Positions 16,301 to 21,926 of a stretch of 50,354 nucleotides of DNA are shown in pieces. The notes beneath the pieces were generated by a model. The model searched no databases and was not told the DNA's origin. It was given only the letters and a program-made list of their open reading frames with translations. The DNA is from Nevskia sp. (lineage in GTDB: Bacteria > Pseudomonadota > Gammaproteobacteria > Nevskiales > Nevskiaceae). The DNA lies in the NCBI GenBank assembly GCA_028291645.1, contig JAQGNU010000232.1:1-50354 (forward strand), read 5' to 3'. The first letter of the stretch is position 1. Every line of letters begins with the position of its first letter. The position numbers and the translations under genes are program-made.

Positions 16301-17341
16301 TCAGCTGTGCGCAGCAGACTCGGTGACTTCAGGTCTGCGCAGCCAGCGCTCGATGGTTTCCTGTGACCAGCCGCGCGTGATGAAGACGATGCGCGTGCGG
16401 TGATCGTCGCTCGGCCATGCCGGCAAGGTCGTCACCGGATGTAGCACGTACTGCACCGCGTGGATCACTACCGGTCCCTTGAAGCCTTTCAGATTGACGA
16501 TGCCCTTCATGCGCAGCAGGTCGGCGCCGCAGACGCCGCGCACCTGCTCCTGCCATTCGAAGAATGCGCGCGGATCGAGCGGCTGATCGACCGTCATGCA
16601 GAAGTTCTTGATCTTCGGATCGTGCGGCGAGTTCTGTTGCGACGCCGGCGCGAGCGAGCCGACTTTCGAGAGCGTGTCGACACCGAGCCAGGGCAGCACA
16701 TCGAATTCCTGCGAGCGCGGATTGTGGCGGCCGCCGCTGAACAACAGCGTCAGATCGCTTGCGTCCGGCGTCATCACGAGCTGCTCGGCCTGCGGATTGA
16801 GCTGCGTCAGCCGCGCCTGCAGCTGCGCCAGGCCGGCGGCATCGCCCATCTCGCGCTTGGTGATCAGCAGACGATCCGCCGCCGCCACCTGCTGCACCGC
16901 TTCCTGGTGACGATCGAGCGTGCCGGCGCCATTCACCGCATCGACCATCGCGACGACGCTGTCGACGACGAAGCGCTGCGACAGCAACGGGTCTTTCTCG
17001 AAATCCTTCACCACCGGCCCGGGATTGGCGAGACCGGTGGTTTCGATGACAACGCGCACGAACGCCGGAATCTCGCCATCCGCCGCACGCTGCAGCAGCC
17101 GGTCCATGCACTCGGGCAAGGCCCCGCGCACGGTGTGGCAGATGCAGCCGCCTTCCAGCAAGGTCGGCGCATTGTCGAGCGGCGTGTCCAACAGCAGGTG
17201 ATCGATACCGACTTCACCGACCTCGTTGATGATGACGGCGGTATTGGCCATCTGCGGCAGCTTCAGCATCGCGTTCAACAAGGTGGTCTTGCCGGCACCG
17301 AGAAAGCCGGTGAGTACGGTGACTGGAATCTTGGACGTCAT
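16301..17341 (-). CDS. G3E-family (CobW/YjiA-type) metal-chaperone GTPase, 346 aa
   Basis: GTP-driven metal insertion protein. Walker A is GFLGAGKTT (12-20), the Walker B region ETTGLANP follows, and TKRE serves as the guanine-recognition motif. The C-terminal domain (about 245-335) is the usual CobW_C fold. The metal motif at 65-69 reads GCICH; most relatives have CxCC, so a His replaces the second of the paired Cys residues. Start at 17341 is preceded by GAGGAG. The metal and client are unknown; zinc is common in the group. A 96-bp copy of codons 23-54 lies 4.6 kb away at 21805-21900. Confidence 0.88.
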   Translation of the reverse strand: MTSKIPVTVLTGFLGAGKTTLLNAMLKLPQMANTAVIINEVGEVGIDHLLLDTPLDNAPTLLEGGCICHTVRGALPECMDRLLQRAADGEIPAFVRVVIETTGLANPGPVVKDFEKDPLLSQRFVVDSVVAMVDAVNGAGTLDRHQEAVQQVAAADRLLITKREMGDAAGLAQLQARLTQLNPQAEQLVMTPDASDLTLLFSGGRHNPRSQEFDVLPWLGVDTLSKVGSLAPASQQNSPHDPKIKNFCMTVDQPLDPRAFFEWQEQVRGVCGADLLRMKGIVNLKGFKGPVVIHAVQYVLHPVTTLPAWPSDDHRTRIVFITRGWSQETIERWLRRPEVTESAAHS

Positions 17342-17587: not shown

Positions 17588-18385
17588 TCAGTACGAGAAG
17601 TTCGCAACGACCTTGAACGGCACGATCTTGGTGTCGTCCCAGCTCGCAGTGCGCATTGCCGTACCGAGATAGCCTGCGGTTTCCGTCGAACTCTGGCCCC
17701 ACAGGTTCGCCTGCAGCGCCTGCTGCCGCACAACGCCGTGATCGCAGGACGTGGTGGTACCGACCGCGAGCACTTTCAACTCGATGCGATCACCCGGCTT
17801 GACCGGGCCGAGGTCGACCGGCATCGGCGAGCTCAACGCCTGGTCCAGCGCAGGCAGCGCAAACACCACGCGGCCATTGCTGTTGCGCAGGAACTGCGCG
17901 GACTGCGGCGCGGCGAGCACGGCGGTTACGGTGCGCGACGCAGAGCCATCGGCCGAGGTGATGAGGTATTGCGCCTCGGCGCCGATCTGCTGCTGGCCGC
18001 CGTCGACTTGCACATTGGCCGGGCACACGCCTGCCTTCAGCGCCAGCACCGGCGTGCCGCTGCCGAAACCGTCACGCGTGATCGCCAGGCTGCTGATCGC
18101 CCGACCGGGCGCGGTGACGACGATCGAGTCCTCTGCGGGCGTAGGCGCACGCTCGGATGCGTGGCAGTCGAGATCCTCGGTGCTCCAGCGCGAGCCCGAC
18201 TCGCAGACGCCGTCGCCGGGTGCGCCCATCAGCACGAGACTCTGCGAGAACGGCTGCGTCGCCGCTGCGGTGCTGGCGCTCGCCGGCGCACAGGCCAGCG
18301 CCGACATCAGCGCGGTCGCCGCAGCGAACGCGCCTAACTTGAACGATTTGGTTTCCATGGTTGCCAGCTTCTTCAGGTTTTCCAT
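17588..18385 (-). CDS. Secreted protein of unknown function in the ECF regulon, 265 aa
   Basis: I do not recognise this family. The N-terminus (MENLKKLATMETKSFKLG, then an Ala-rich hydrophobic stretch ending in APASAS) is a signal peptide; cleavage after ASA is likely. The mature part is beta-rich with repeated strand-turn patterns such as SIVVTAPGRAISSLAITRDG and ends in VVANFSY. Four Cys residues (in GVCES, LDCH, GVCP and TSCDH) could form two disulfides. The start at 18385 has AGGAG; an internal ATG at 18358 would also leave a signal peptide. A GGAATAA-N14-CGTC promoter 59-83 bases upstream matches those of the catalase and sigma genes, so it probably serves the same stress response in the periplasm or outside. 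Confidence 0.75.
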   Translation of the reverse strand: MENLKKLATMETKSFKLGAFAAATALMSALACAPASASTAAATQPFSQSLVLMGAPGDGVCESGSRWSTEDLDCHASERAPTPAEDSIVVTAPGRAISSLAITRDGFGSGTPVLALKAGVCPANVQVDGGQQQIGAEAQYLITSADGSASRTVTAVLAAPQSAQFLRNSNGRVVFALPALDQALSSPMPVDLGPVKPGDRIELKVLAVGTTTSCDHGVVRQQALQANLWGQSSTETAGYLGTAMRTASWDDTKIVPFKVVANFSY

Positions 18386-18443: not shown

Positions 18444-18468
18444 GACGAAACGACCGGAGATTTATTCC
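18444..18468 (-). promoter_or_regulatory. ECF-type promoter of the secreted protein gene
   Basis: On the minus strand GGAATAA (18468-18462), 14 bases, then CGTC (18447-18444) followed by TTA. The same words at the same spacing stand before the catalase operon and the sigma gene, so this is read as the -35 and -10 of the local ECF sigma factor. The untranslated leader would be about 50 bases. Confidence 0.72.
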
Positions 18469-18593
18469 ACGGACAATTCAAAAACTCTCTGCTATCAAAA
18501 ACGAAGCGGCGCCTGCATCGATCGAAACTGCACGATCGAATGCGGCGCCGCCGGCTACAACACTTCGGCAACGATCAGCTCACTTCTCATCAT

Positions 18594-19124
18594 TCACGAC
18601 GCCATGCTGCGAAACACGCCGTCCTTGCGAATCAGACCGTGAAACATCGCCGCAGCCAGATGCATCAGTACCGTCAGCAAGAACAGATAGGCCAGATAGG
18701 TATGCAGACGATGCAGAACGGTATAGAGATGCAGATCGTGCGGCGCAATCGGCGGCAATCGCAGCGTGCTGAAGATCTGTACCGGATAACCGCCGGCAGC
18801 AAGCATCGCCCAGCCGATCAAAGGCATCGCGATCATCAGTGCGTACAGCAGCCAGTGCGACAGCCTTGCCGCATGACGCTGCCAGGCCGGAATGTCGGAC
18901 GGCAGCGCCGGCGGCGGATGCCGCAAGCGCACGACGATGCGCAGCAGCACCAGCAGCAGAATCGCGCTGCCGATCGGCCGATGCCATGCCACCAGCGTGC
19001 TGTGCGCGGTGCTGACGGTCGACACCATCGCGGCACCGATGAACAGCATTGCGATGATCATCAGCGCCATCGTCCAGTGCAGCAGGCGCGCCGGCAAAAC
19101 GAAATGTTCGGTGTGCGGATTCAT
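18594..19124 (-). CDS. Cytochrome b561, 176 aa
   Basis: A four-helix inner-membrane di-heme b protein that passes electrons between the quinone pool and periplasmic partners. Helices lie at about 10-33, 42-63, 85-107 and 140-165. Heme-ligand His candidates are in LLHWTM, AWHRP, LSHWLL and the H-rich HDLHLYTVLHRLHTYLAYL stretch. The ATG overlaps the catalase stop by four bases (ATGA), so the two are translated together. In this pair it may feed electrons to the periplasmic heme enzyme. No T-run hairpin is evident after the stop. Confidence 0.9.
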   Translation of the reverse strand: MNPHTEHFVLPARLLHWTMALMIIAMLFIGAAMVSTVSTAHSTLVAWHRPIGSAILLLVLLRIVVRLRHPPPALPSDIPAWQRHAARLSHWLLYALMIAMPLIGWAMLAAGGYPVQIFSTLRLPPIAPHDLHLYTVLHRLHTYLAYLFLLTVLMHLAAAMFHGLIRKDGVFRSMAS

Positions 19125-20242
19125 GGCTTGCTCCGATTGCCGTTCTGCGCGGCATCGTGAATGGCCGGCGCCTGCGCGCTCGGCTGTGGACCTTCGCTCG
19201 CGCGACGCGTGAATGAGGTTGAATAAACCGCTGAGCGCGCCGCCAGCAGCGGATCGCCGGAAGCCGCAATGCCCGGCGGCAGAATCAGCGGATCGAAATT
19301 GAGATCGCGGCAAGGGCTGTCTTCTTCGCTGGCGACACGCTCGATGCTGAGCGTGCCGACATCGACGCTCTCGCGATCGTCCGGCCATTGCTTCGTCGCG
19401 TTGTTGGTCGGATCGCCATCCTTGGCGAGTGTCAGCAGCAGATGCCAGCGCAGCGGACCGTGTGTAATGCGCGTGCGCACGTCGTCGAACAGGAAGTCGT
19501 GATCGAGCGTCGCCAACCGGTCCTTGTCGATCGCTGCGAACGGTGTTTCCGGCAAGCTCGACCAGCGCACGAAATGGCTGTCGCCCTGGGCATTGATGAA
19601 GCGGAACGCGTTGATGCTGTAGTAGGTGCCGTTGGCGAAGCTCGACGGCAACGGATGGTCCTTCAACCACTGCATGAACGCGCGCGTTTCCGGATGCGCC
19701 TGCAGGTAAGCCGCGACCTTGGCCGGGTCCGGCTTGCCGTTCGCATCCGGTTGGGTCGCGACCTGGAAGTCGAGAAACGCCTGCGGGGTGGCAACCGGGA
19801 AGACCGGCGTGTCGTCCATGCCGGTGCGCCACTGTTCGCCGTTGGCGGCAGTAATGCTCAGCGCCATCGCATGAAATACGAGGCGGCCATCCGGCGAATA
19901 CGGCTGGCCGCCGCCGGTCGAGAAGCGTCCGATCAGCGACGAGCGGCCGGCGGCGAATACGCGCGCCTTCGACAGACGTACGCCCTCGCCGTTCGCATCG
20001 AAATGGCCAACGAAGCACACGCCCTTGGCGTGCGCGCGACGGAAGCCTTCGTGCAGGCCGTCGTGCGCCTCCAGCGCGTTGGCGATTTTGGCCGGCGTCA
20101 GCCGGCGCGGATCGAGCCAGCCCGCGTCGAAGGCAAACAGCAGCGCGACGGCGCCGACGGTGGCCGCAATCAAAGCGGCCGCGCGTCCATGCTCGCGCAG
20201 CGCCCTGCCAAGCTGCTGCCGCAAAGGCAGTCGATCGTTCAT
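19121..20242 (-). CDS. Catalase-family peroxidase (SrpA type), membrane-anchored, 373 aa
   Basis: Small heme catalase-like protein without the C-terminal domains of full catalases. A hydrophobic segment at about 20-42 (AAALIAATVGAVALLFAF) is an anchor or signal. RRAHAKG at 68-74 matches the catalase distal-His segment, RFSTGGG and FHAMALSI follow, and FRFINAQGDSHFVRW stands in the middle of the fold. The C-terminus carries DPLILPPGI as in SrpA-type proteins. The start at 20242 (MNDRLP) has GGAGCAGGA upstream. It is first in an operon with cytochrome b561 and is divergent from the sigma gene, with an ECF-type promoter at 20286-20310. A role against periplasmic peroxides is likely. Confidence 0.87.
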   Translation of the reverse strand: MNDRLPLRQQLGRALREHGRAAALIAATVGAVALLFAFDAGWLDPRRLTPAKIANALEAHDGLHEGFRRAHAKGVCFVGHFDANGEGVRLSKARVFAAGRSSLIGRFSTGGGQPYSPDGRLVFHAMALSITAANGEQWRTGMDDTPVFPVATPQAFLDFQVATQPDANGKPDPAKVAAYLQAHPETRAFMQWLKDHPLPSSFANGTYYSINAFRFINAQGDSHFVRWSSLPETPFAAIDKDRLATLDHDFLFDDVRTRITHGPLRWHLLLTLAKDGDPTNNATKQWPDDRESVDVGTLSIERVASEEDSPCRDLNFDPLILPPGIAASGDPLLAARSAVYSTSFTRRASEGPQPSAQAPAIHDAAQNGNRSKP

Positions 20243-20285
20243 GTCCTGCTCCAAAGCCGCAAGGGCTAGCCTGTTGAACCGGTAT

Positions 20286-20310
20286 GACGCGGCGGCGCGC
20301 GATTTATTCC
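20286..20310 (-). promoter_or_regulatory. ECF-type promoter of the catalase/cytochrome b561 operon
   Basis: Minus strand: GGAATAA (20310-20304), 14 bases, CGTC (20289-20286) and then ATA. Identical words and spacing occur at 20349-20373 on the other strand and at 18444-18468. The distance to the catalase ATG at 20242 leaves a leader of about 35-40 bases. Confidence 0.75.
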
Positions 20311-20348
20311 CGCGAAAAAACTCGTTCCTAAAATTTCTTTCGCGCCGT

Positions 20349-20373
20349 GGAATAATTGGCCGCGGCGGGCGTC
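20349..20373 (+). promoter_or_regulatory. ECF-type promoter of the sigma/anti-sigma operon (autoregulation)
   Basis: Plus strand: GGAATAA (20349-20355), 14 bases, CGTC (20370-20373), then TGA. It is back to back with the catalase promoter, 38 bases apart. Transcription would start near 20380 and the sigma ATG is at 20416. Confidence 0.75.
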
Positions 20374-20415: not shown

Positions 20416-20928
20416 ATGCAAGCCACCATCAGCGACGAGGAACTGCGCGAACTGCTGCCGCGGCTGCGCCGCTTCGCGCAGTGGCTGACGCGCGAACCGA
20501 GCAGCGCGGACGACCTCGTGCAGAACTGCCTGGAGCGCGCACTGTCGCGCTGGCAATCGCGCGATCCGCAAGCCAGCCTGCGCGCCTGGCTGTTCACGAT
20601 CATGTACCGCCAGTTCGTCGACAGCCGCCGTCGCAGCAATCGCATCCAGCGTTTTTTCGAGCGCTTCCAAGAAGAGCCGGAACTGGCGCCGTCGGCAGAG
20701 GATGCCGTCATCGCCAATGCTTCGCTGGAAGCCTTCGGTCAGCTTTCGCCGGACCATCGCGCGATCCTGCTGATGGTTACGGTCGAGGGCTTCAGCTACC
20801 AGGAAACCGCGGACACGCTGGGCCTGCCGCTCGGCACCGTGATGTCGCGCCTGTCGCGCGCGCGCAGCGCCTACCGCGCATTGACCGAGGGCGAAGCCAG
20901 CCCGGCGCCGCTGAGGAGAATCAAATGA
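20416..20928 (+). CDS. ECF sigma factor, 170 aa
   Basis: RNA polymerase sigma factor of the extracytoplasmic-function class. Region 2 spans about 15-75 (SSADDLVQNCLERALSRW, then LRAWLFTIMYRQFVDSRRR). Region 4 spans about 105-160 (LSPDHRAILLMVTVEGFSYQ and TADTLGLPLGTVMSRLSRAR), with its helix-turn-helix. Regions 1 and 3 are missing, as expected. The last four bases overlap the anti-sigma start (ATGA), a standard sigma/anti-sigma arrangement. The promoter at 20349-20373 matches the promoters of the neighbouring catalase operon and secreted protein gene, so it probably activates itself and both of them. I do not assign an ECF group number. Confidence 0.92.
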   Translation: MQATISDEELRELLPRLRRFAQWLTREPSSADDLVQNCLERALSRWQSRDPQASLRAWLFTIMYRQFVDSRRRSNRIQRFFERFQEEPELAPSAEDAVIANASLEAFGQLSPDHRAILLMVTVEGFSYQETADTLGLPLGTVMSRLSRARSAYRALTEGEASPAPLRRIK

Positions 20929-21698
20929 ACACGATGCGTCCCAGCGAAGACGAACTGCATGCCTACGTCGACCAGCAGCTCGACCCGCAACGTCGCGCCG
21001 CAATGGAATCGTTCCTGGCCGCGTCGCCGGAAGATGCCGCGCGCGTTGCTGCTTGGCGCCGCGATGCCGATGCACTGCGCACCGCACTCGCTGGCACGAT
21101 GAGTCTGCCGATGAATCCGGCGTTCGATCCGGCAGCCATCCGCCGCCGCATGCGCATGCGCACTACGCGACGCTGGTCGATGGCCGCTTCGTTCGTATTG
21201 GTGATGGGCCTGAGCGGCATGGGCGGCTGGTTCGCGCACAACACGGTGATGAATCGTGCCGCGCCGCCGATGCAGGATGCGGTCGATGCCTATCGCGTGT
21301 TCGCCACCGACAGCGTGCATCCGGTCGAATGGCGCCCCGATGCGAATGGCGGCAGCGATAGTGGCGGCGATCTGCAGACCTGGCTCGGCGCACGCCTCGG
21401 CCGGCCGATGTCGCTGCCCGATCTGGGCGCCTATGGTTTCAAGTTGATGGGCGGACGTCTGCTGTCGACCGACGACGGCCCGGCCGCGCTGATCCTGTAC
21501 GAGGATGCCGCCGGCCAGCGCGTCAGCTTCTACCTGCGCCCCAGCTCACGCACCGCGCCGGGCACGCAGGGACAGCGCACCGACAAGGGCCTGCAGACTC
21601 GCTACTGGTTCCGCAACGGCTATGGCTTCGCGGTGGTCGGTCGTTCGAGCGATCCGCGCACGACCGAAATCCAGGACGCGTTTCCGTCGGCGACTTGA
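20925..21698 (+). CDS. Membrane anti-sigma factor, 257 aa
   Basis: Partner of the ECF sigma factor. The cytoplasmic N-terminus (DELHAYVDQQLDPQRRAAME, about 9-28) is the usual anti-sigma helix set. The HxxxCxxC zinc motif is absent, so redox sensing through zinc is unlikely. One transmembrane helix lies at about 85-104 (SMAASFVLVMGLSGMGGW). The periplasmic part (about 105-257) has segments such as DLGAYGFKLMGGRLLS and RYWFRNGYGFAVVG. Start at 20925 has GAGGAG and overlaps the sigma stop. The signal could be sensed outside the membrane; its nature is not visible. Confidence 0.88.
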   Translation: MNTMRPSEDELHAYVDQQLDPQRRAAMESFLAASPEDAARVAAWRRDADALRTALAGTMSLPMNPAFDPAAIRRRMRMRTTRRWSMAASFVLVMGLSGMGGWFAHNTVMNRAAPPMQDAVDAYRVFATDSVHPVEWRPDANGGSDSGGDLQTWLGARLGRPMSLPDLGAYGFKLMGGRLLSTDDGPAALILYEDAAGQRVSFYLRPSSRTAPGTQGQRTDKGLQTRYWFRNGYGFAVVGRSSDPRTTEIQDAFPSAT

Positions 21699-21804
21699 GC
21701 GGCTGCAGGAATCAGAAAATGCCCCGTCCCTGCGGGTTGTTTACGGATAAGCTCTTGACTGGCGGAGTCTGTACATGAGGTTTCGCCGGATGCTGCCGCT
21801 TTCG

Positions 21805-21900
21805 CGGCGTTTCCAGCAGCAAGTGATCGATACCGACTTCACCAACCTCGTTGATGATGACGGCGATATTGGTCATCTCCGGAAGCTTCAGCATCGCGTT
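21805..21900 (-). pseudogene. 96-bp fragment copied from the G3E GTPase gene (codons 23-54)
   Basis: Compared by eye with 17180-17275, 88 of 96 bases agree and 28 of 32 codons give the same residue (NAMLKLP..., then INEVGEVGIDHLLL). Both copies are on the minus strand, so they are direct repeats. The fragment lacks the Walker A motif and everything after Pro54 and cannot work. It ends 27 bases before the rhomboid gene. The two copies bracket the secreted protein, cytochrome b561, catalase, sigma and anti-sigma genes. Confidence 0.85.
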
Positions 21901-21926
21901 CGACATTGCCGCCAGAGCACAGCTCA

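Follow-up and report, generated by a model that had tools for sequence, protein, structure and literature searches.

A likely ECF26-type sigma factor regulon with a catalase-family enzyme and a cytochrome b561 as predicted targets in Nevskia sp.

On one contig of Nevskia sp. (JAQGNU010000232.1, positions 1 to 50,354; this whole stretch of 50,354 nucleotides is called the window) the pattern GGAATAA-N14-CGTC stands before three transcription units, which raises the question whether an ECF sigma factor encoded there controls its own operon, the adjoining catalase/cytochrome b561 operon and the gene of a secreted protein, and to which stress such a regulon would respond. A first-pass annotation had joined these five genes into one oxidative-stress circuit. 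The part of this proposal that concerns the sigma and catalase promoters was borne out by footprinting and by the published ECF26 consensus, whereas the secreted-protein gene is attached by one site and the type of stress is one that we infer. The finding itself is considered correct and the regulon likely, adding one more case to the ECF26 kind, here with catalase and b561 as targets. The features of the locus are the following.

17179..17280: first copy of a 102-bp direct repeat, within the 5' portion of a cobW-like gene
17588..18385, minus strand: secreted protein of 265 aa, N-terminus signal-peptide-like by eye, no family at the default cut-off
18444..18468, minus strand: ECF promoter predicted for the secreted-protein gene, exact GGAATAA-N14-CGTC, 58 nt from CGTC to ATG (18385)
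18594..19124, minus strand: cytochrome b561 of 176 aa (PF01292, 6.6e-28)
19121..20242, minus strand: catalase-family protein of 373 aa with an N-terminal hydrophobic segment (21-39) (PF00199, 2.5e-26)
20286..20310, minus strand: ECF promoter predicted for the catalase/b561 operon, exact GGAATAA-N14-CGTC, 43 nt from CGTC to ATG
20311..20348: 38-bp AT-richer spacer between the back-to-back -35 elements, 45% GC versus 64% in the window
20349..20373, plus strand: ECF promoter predicted for the sigma/anti-sigma operon (predicted autoregulation), exact GGAATAA-N14-CGTC, 42 nt from CGTC to ATG
20416..20928, plus strand: ECF sigma factor, ECF26-like, 170 aa (Sigma70_r2 and r4_2; tree)
20925..21698, plus strand: anti-sigma factor of 257 aa (weak NCBIfam anti-sigma matches below the cut-off; hydrophobic segment and Cys scan)
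21804..21905: second copy of the 102-bp direct repeat (91% identity), lying between the anti-sigma gene and a rhomboid gene

The motif scan returned the three sites at the coordinates and on the strands given by the first-pass annotation and, likewise in agreement with it, no further copy in the window. If transcription starts ~6-8 nt past CGTC, the leaders before the nearest start codons would be roughly 35-52 nt long, in line with the 35-55 bases estimated previously. None of 100 dinucleotide-preserving shuffles of the window produced an exact match. The annotation had also proposed a search of the genome with the exact pattern; over the assembly (3,828,035 bases on 234 contigs, 91.4% complete) this search gave three matches, all at this locus within a span of 2 kb and none scattered elsewhere, compared to one match for the reversed-pattern control. 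With one mismatch allowed 33 matches were obtained versus 32 for the control, so the contrast is confined to the exact pattern. The wider form GGAATA-N15-[CT]GT[CT] occurred 12 times in the genome (control: 7). Of its nine sites away from the locus, seven are located inside open frames of 150 codons or more. None of the nine has, in the next 120 nt, an ATG that is preceded by a ribosome-site-like stretch and begins a frame of at least 60 codons; the sigma gene of the window, in which no ribosome site stands out by eye, would be overlooked by this test too. When GGAATA-Nk-CGTC was scanned in the window for k = 6 to 25, k = 15 alone occurred. All three sites read GGAAT-N16-CGTC and fall within the 16-17 bp between GGAAT and CGTC that characterize ECF26 promoters.

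Four of 61 genomes contained a match to the window sigma factor at E <= 1e-25, with three exact sites in the window genome, three in G006 (a relative in the same genus group), two in G027 and none in G018, whose sigma match was the weakest (38% identity). The 57 genomes without such a match held 28 exact sites in sum (control: 20), corresponding to a background of about 0.5 per genome. As to the AT-richer spacer at 20311..20348, it is possible that it serves both flanking promoters as a shared UP-like element. Over 26 divergent pairs of -35 elements, the window's included, the stretches in between had a mean GC content of 0.52 versus 0.63 for their surroundings, and an A/T-run core was present in 11 of the 26.

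The sigma and anti-sigma genes overlap by ATGA, as do the catalase and b561 genes, so that two promoters could be enough for four genes. The anti-sigma factor has a single hydrophobic segment (residues 86-104, mean hydropathy 1.51) and no cysteine. In a tree of 43 sigma factors the window sigma groups with those of G006 and Sorangium (support 99/96) within a 34-row clade of catalase-linked and plasmid sigma factors (88/99); this clade takes in an Aminobacter sigma factor near a sulfite oxidase. Sigma region-4 matches elsewhere in the genome number 17; nine of them were placed in the tree, all outside the clade, and eight were left out owing to a low score against the sigma profile. Among the ten sigma factors placed from its own genome, the window sigma is the only clade member, and no other protein of that genome matches it at E <= 1e-25. 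The catalase-linked sigma factors do not form one clade; this label changes three times on the tree.

Footprinting was carried out at the loci of catalase relatives from the 61 genomes (14 with a match at E <= 1e-20, the window genome included) and from a named collection, in which the best 80 of 568 matches were considered, a sample that favours near relatives. The resulting set of 86 loci comprised the window, six loci from the 61 genomes and 79 from the named collection (best 80 of 568); L050, which shares its contig with L033, L038, for which no b561 match was found, and the more distant L039-L047 were excluded. A locus is counted as lacking a sigma gene if there is none within the locus sequence, irrespective of the genome elsewhere. 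On this basis (best 80 of 568) GGAAT[AT]-N15-[CT]GT[CT] preceded the catalase gene at 40 of 49 sigma-linked loci and was missing there at the other nine (9/49), versus 7/37 loci without a sigma gene. For the sigma gene the search was extended into the open reading frame because many starts were over-called, and the wider motif was found ahead of the sigma frame or close to its first codons at 42 of the 49 loci and at both genes at 34 of them (again among the best 80 of 568). The wider -10 element [CT]GT[CT] was adopted after exceptions had been seen, namely TGTC or TGTT in some sphingomonad, Pandoraea and Paraburkholderia loci; the strict form GGAAT-N16-CGTC preceded the catalase at 18/49 sigma-linked loci versus 1/37 others (best 80 of 568, L050 and L038 being left out). 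Fisher's test for the association of motif and sigma gene gave p = 5e-9 (49 versus 37 loci, best 80 of 568), a value that overstates independence because the loci share ancestry and come mostly from Burkholderiaceae. Among the best 80 of 568, all nine loci of Dyella and all three of Rhodanobacter had neither a sigma gene in the locus nor the motif. Two Pantoea plasmids carry the gene order catalase, b561, sigma, anti-sigma, with GGAAT-N16-CGTC upstream of the catalase in each. The linkage of catalase, b561 and sigma genes recurs in many genera and is not new in kind.

The spacer was nearly constant. When k was varied from 8 to 25 in GGAATA-Nk-[CT]GT[CT] before the sigma-linked catalases, N15 was observed 40 times, N16 three times and any other length at most twice (best 80 of 568); over all 798,488 bases of the loci the counts were 124 for N15, 28 for N16 and 0-8 for other lengths (same best 80 of 568). 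Exceptions with 17 bp after GGAAT are found at plasmid loci, namely the catalase and sigma sites of Gluconobacter and the Aminobacter sites. Within this comparison of sequences, nothing points to a promoter more strongly than the near-constancy of the spacer. The motif agrees with published work on ECF26, for which a -35 element GGAAT and a -10 element CGTC are given as consensus (PMC6527743; PMC6180224, Table 1) and a spacing variation of 1 bp is mentioned (PMC6527743). In the mapped ECF26 promoters of S. meliloti (PMC6180224), e.g. before sorT and rpoE4, GGAAT and CGTC are separated by 16 or 17 bp by our own count. On the Aminobacter plasmid pUSP5 GGAAT-N17-CGTC lies before a gene run with sigma and anti-sigma genes, and another copy lies before a sulfite oxidase.

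Because footprinting, the nearly fixed spacer and the published ECF26 consensus coincide, the assignment of the three sites as promoters of the adjoining ECF sigma factor is strongly supported on comparative grounds, and the predicted promoters of the sigma and catalase operons have strong support individually. Two conserved half-elements at a fixed distance might in principle also be bound by another protein, as the operator of a different regulator, e.g. a repressor. We regard such an origin as highly improbable, as the motif is not palindromic, is directed towards the start codon where it precedes the catalase and the sigma gene, is associated with the presence of a sigma gene and agrees with a published sigma consensus that was mapped experimentally. 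The case of the secreted-protein gene is different, since its only homolog that was found, in G006, lacks the motif within the 3.7 kb examined, so that the membership of this gene in the regulon rests on its single site. The site might accordingly be a chance or decayed match, with control limited to the sigma/anti-sigma and catalase/b561 operons. This narrower regulon appears unlikely to us: a third exact copy within 2 kb is hardly expected by chance, given 0 matches in 100 shuffles and ~0.5 per genome in relatives, and the gene has, besides the exact motif, a well-placed leader and ribosome site. The secreted gene is a predicted, more weakly supported member of the regulon.

One homolog of the secreted protein was found in 60 relatives (in G006, 50-52% identity, on another contig) and none in 273 other genomes of a class sample. 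No Pfam or NCBIfam family was assigned at the default cut-off, and a looser cut-off gave DUF7155 only, below threshold. A crude signal-peptide test did not flag the protein, and an AlphaFold2 model from two sequences had a mean pLDDT of 43, too poor for a fold search. At one end of a G006 contig (L194, G006:C205) two tandem exact sites at about 8882 and 8979 precede a signal-peptide-like start, an echo of the window's secreted gene.

In the other lineages, 33 extra motif sites are not located before catalase, b561, sigma, anti-sigma or secreted genes (own sorting, best 80 of 568), and 14 of these 33 precede exported-looking proteins (best 80 of 568): three in Nitrospirillum, four in Salinicola, one in Modicisalibacter, four in Paraburkholderia/Burkholderia (spacer N16) and two in sphingomonads. 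The one Paraburkholderia/Burkholderia protein that was tested belongs to DUF4148. Together with the window protein the exported-looking proteins fall into six families, and no member of one family resembles a member of another at E <= 0.01. Export of the extra targets was rejected as a general rule; the crude signal-peptide test flagged 6/7 full examples but also 201/527 control ORFs (38%), too many for a statistical statement. As for the other extra sites, five precede anti-sigma-like proteins and one a trypsin-like protease (both by eye), and 13 are in-gene or unclear. Extra anti-sigma-like genes (by eye) with their own motif copy were seen at L065, L066, L089, L098 and L124 (four Paraburkholderia, one Trinickia); the motif before the trypsin-like protease (by eye) was noted in Burkholderia sp. 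Leaf177 (L062, minus strand, site 2678 in reverse-complement coordinates).

The catalase-family protein was compared with known structures and with its relatives. Its best PDB match was 3e4w/3e4y (catalase family, 1.3e-36, residues 48-360). Residues H71, R336 and Y340 are identical in 86/86 aligned sequences (best 80 of 568); we take H71 to be the distal His and R336 and Y340 the proximal Arg and Tyr of catalases. With the profile match and these three residues the protein has the features of family PF00199. The distal Asn of human catalase aligns with Asp143, so that the Asn expected of a true catalase is absent; in the 86 aligned sequences this column holds Asn 67 times, Asp 18 times and Val once, i.e. 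most of the family keeps Asn (best 80 of 568). The exchange is relevant to activity, not to membership in the fold family. A second catalase-family stretch in the same genome (L046, G000:C131:30623-31519) is 35% identical and has one internal stop; the scan of its locus gave no GGAAT-N16-18-CGTC. For the b561 protein, E. coli cytochrome b561 (5oc0) was the sole PDB match at E <= 0.001 (4.9e-11), with several histidines aligned, some of which are presumably heme ligands. Profile match and these putative ligand histidines place it in PF01292.

With respect to the stress signal, we infer peroxide for the window's regulon from the catalase-like enzyme and from the induction of a Burkholderia cenocepacia gene pair. 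According to PMC2830190, the catalase gene BCAL3477 and the divergent sigma gene BCAL3478 were induced 23.1- and 16.6-fold by H2O2 (qPCR, 60 min), while no significant change is reported for either after 5 min of NaOCl. The induction of BCAL3477 peaked at 60 min, H2O2 being present just in traces after 15 min (PMC2830190), and its authors describe a similar pattern for both genes and propose an indirect trigger for the catalase. This time course would speak for a genuine regulon with a signal other than peroxide, i.e. sulfite or other reactive species as for RpoE1/RpoE4, with the enzyme acting as a peroxidase for something else. The characterized ECF26 sigma factors of S. meliloti, RpoE1 and RpoE4, are sulfite-responsive (PMC3511301), and two plasmid sigma factors, from L139 (sulfite oxidase in view) and L141 (molybdopterin oxidoreductase in view), share the clade of the window sigma; four plasmid rows of the tree are labelled 'sulfite' in all, but just these two have such a gene in view. 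Nevertheless, the targets in the window are a catalase-family enzyme and a b561, and no sulfite oxidase was found in a scan of seven genes of the module and its vicinity. A signal other than peroxide is therefore given a smaller, though still appreciable, probability.

Taken together, it is quite probable that the locus encodes a small envelope-stress regulon under an autoregulated ECF26-type sigma factor. The anti-sigma factor, with a putative cytoplasmic N-terminus, one predicted transmembrane segment and a putative periplasmic C-terminus, would sequester the sigma factor until its release is brought about by a periplasmic oxidant or some other reactive compound there. The free sigma factor would then guide RNA polymerase to GGAATAA-N14-CGTC, a step for which the comparison of loci gives strong support. 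It would thereby fire its own operon in a positive feedback and, back to back with it, the catalase/b561 operon; judging from the motif, the secreted-protein gene might be fired as well. The membrane-anchored catalase-fold enzyme may be a peroxidase of the periplasm, to which cytochrome b561 could pass quinol electrons; alternatively, cytochrome b561 could handle superoxide.

A broader idea is a widespread envelope peroxide module under ECF26-type sigma factors and exact-spacer promoters, in which the membrane-anchored catalase-fold enzyme would be a quinol peroxidase fed via b561 and several lineages would each have added an unrelated exported target, perhaps as a sacrificial oxidant scavenger or as a feedback sensor for the anti-sigma factor. 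We offer this as a speculation that is rather doubtful as it stands. We found no description of a catalase/b561 ECF26 regulon in the open-access papers searched, and work on ECF classification may mention the gene context. If the regulon proves true, the unexplained peroxide-induced catalase/sigma pair of Burkholderia would gain a promoter code and a regulon, a sigma group characterized for sulfite would extend to catalase/b561 genes in alpha-, beta- and gammaproteobacteria, and the role of the membrane-anchored catalase-like enzyme with its b561 partner would become directly testable.

The 102-bp repeat is a fragment of the cobW-like gene, and its two copies flank the block of sigma, catalase and secreted genes. 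In G017 the interval between cobW and rhomboid genes is occupied by a different gene, a 690-codon frame. The flanking repeat and the different gene in G017 indicate that the module lies at a variable site, and it may have been inserted there.

In comparison with known systems, the locus resembles BCAL3477/BCAL3478 of B. cenocepacia in its divergent catalase and sigma genes, which are co-induced by H2O2 there (PMC2830190) and are presumably homologous; the passages on that pair name no promoter motif. Contrary to 3e4w/3e4y, whose match begins past the N-terminal hydrophobic segment of the window protein, the window catalase gene has a b561 partner, and unlike E. coli b561 (5oc0) the window b561 gene is paired with a catalase-family gene. 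As in the ECF26 systems described for S. meliloti RpoE1/RpoE4 and Starkeya SigE, the promoter is of the GGAAT/CGTC type with 16-17 bp in between, the sigma gene is followed by the anti-sigma gene, the regulon is small and, as for RpoE1/RpoE4, the sigma factor is directed to its own promoter, which is predicted from the motif in the present case. The difference lies in the targets: a catalase-like enzyme, a b561 and a secreted protein in the window, versus sulfite oxidase, cytochrome c and pseudoazurin in those ECF26 systems.
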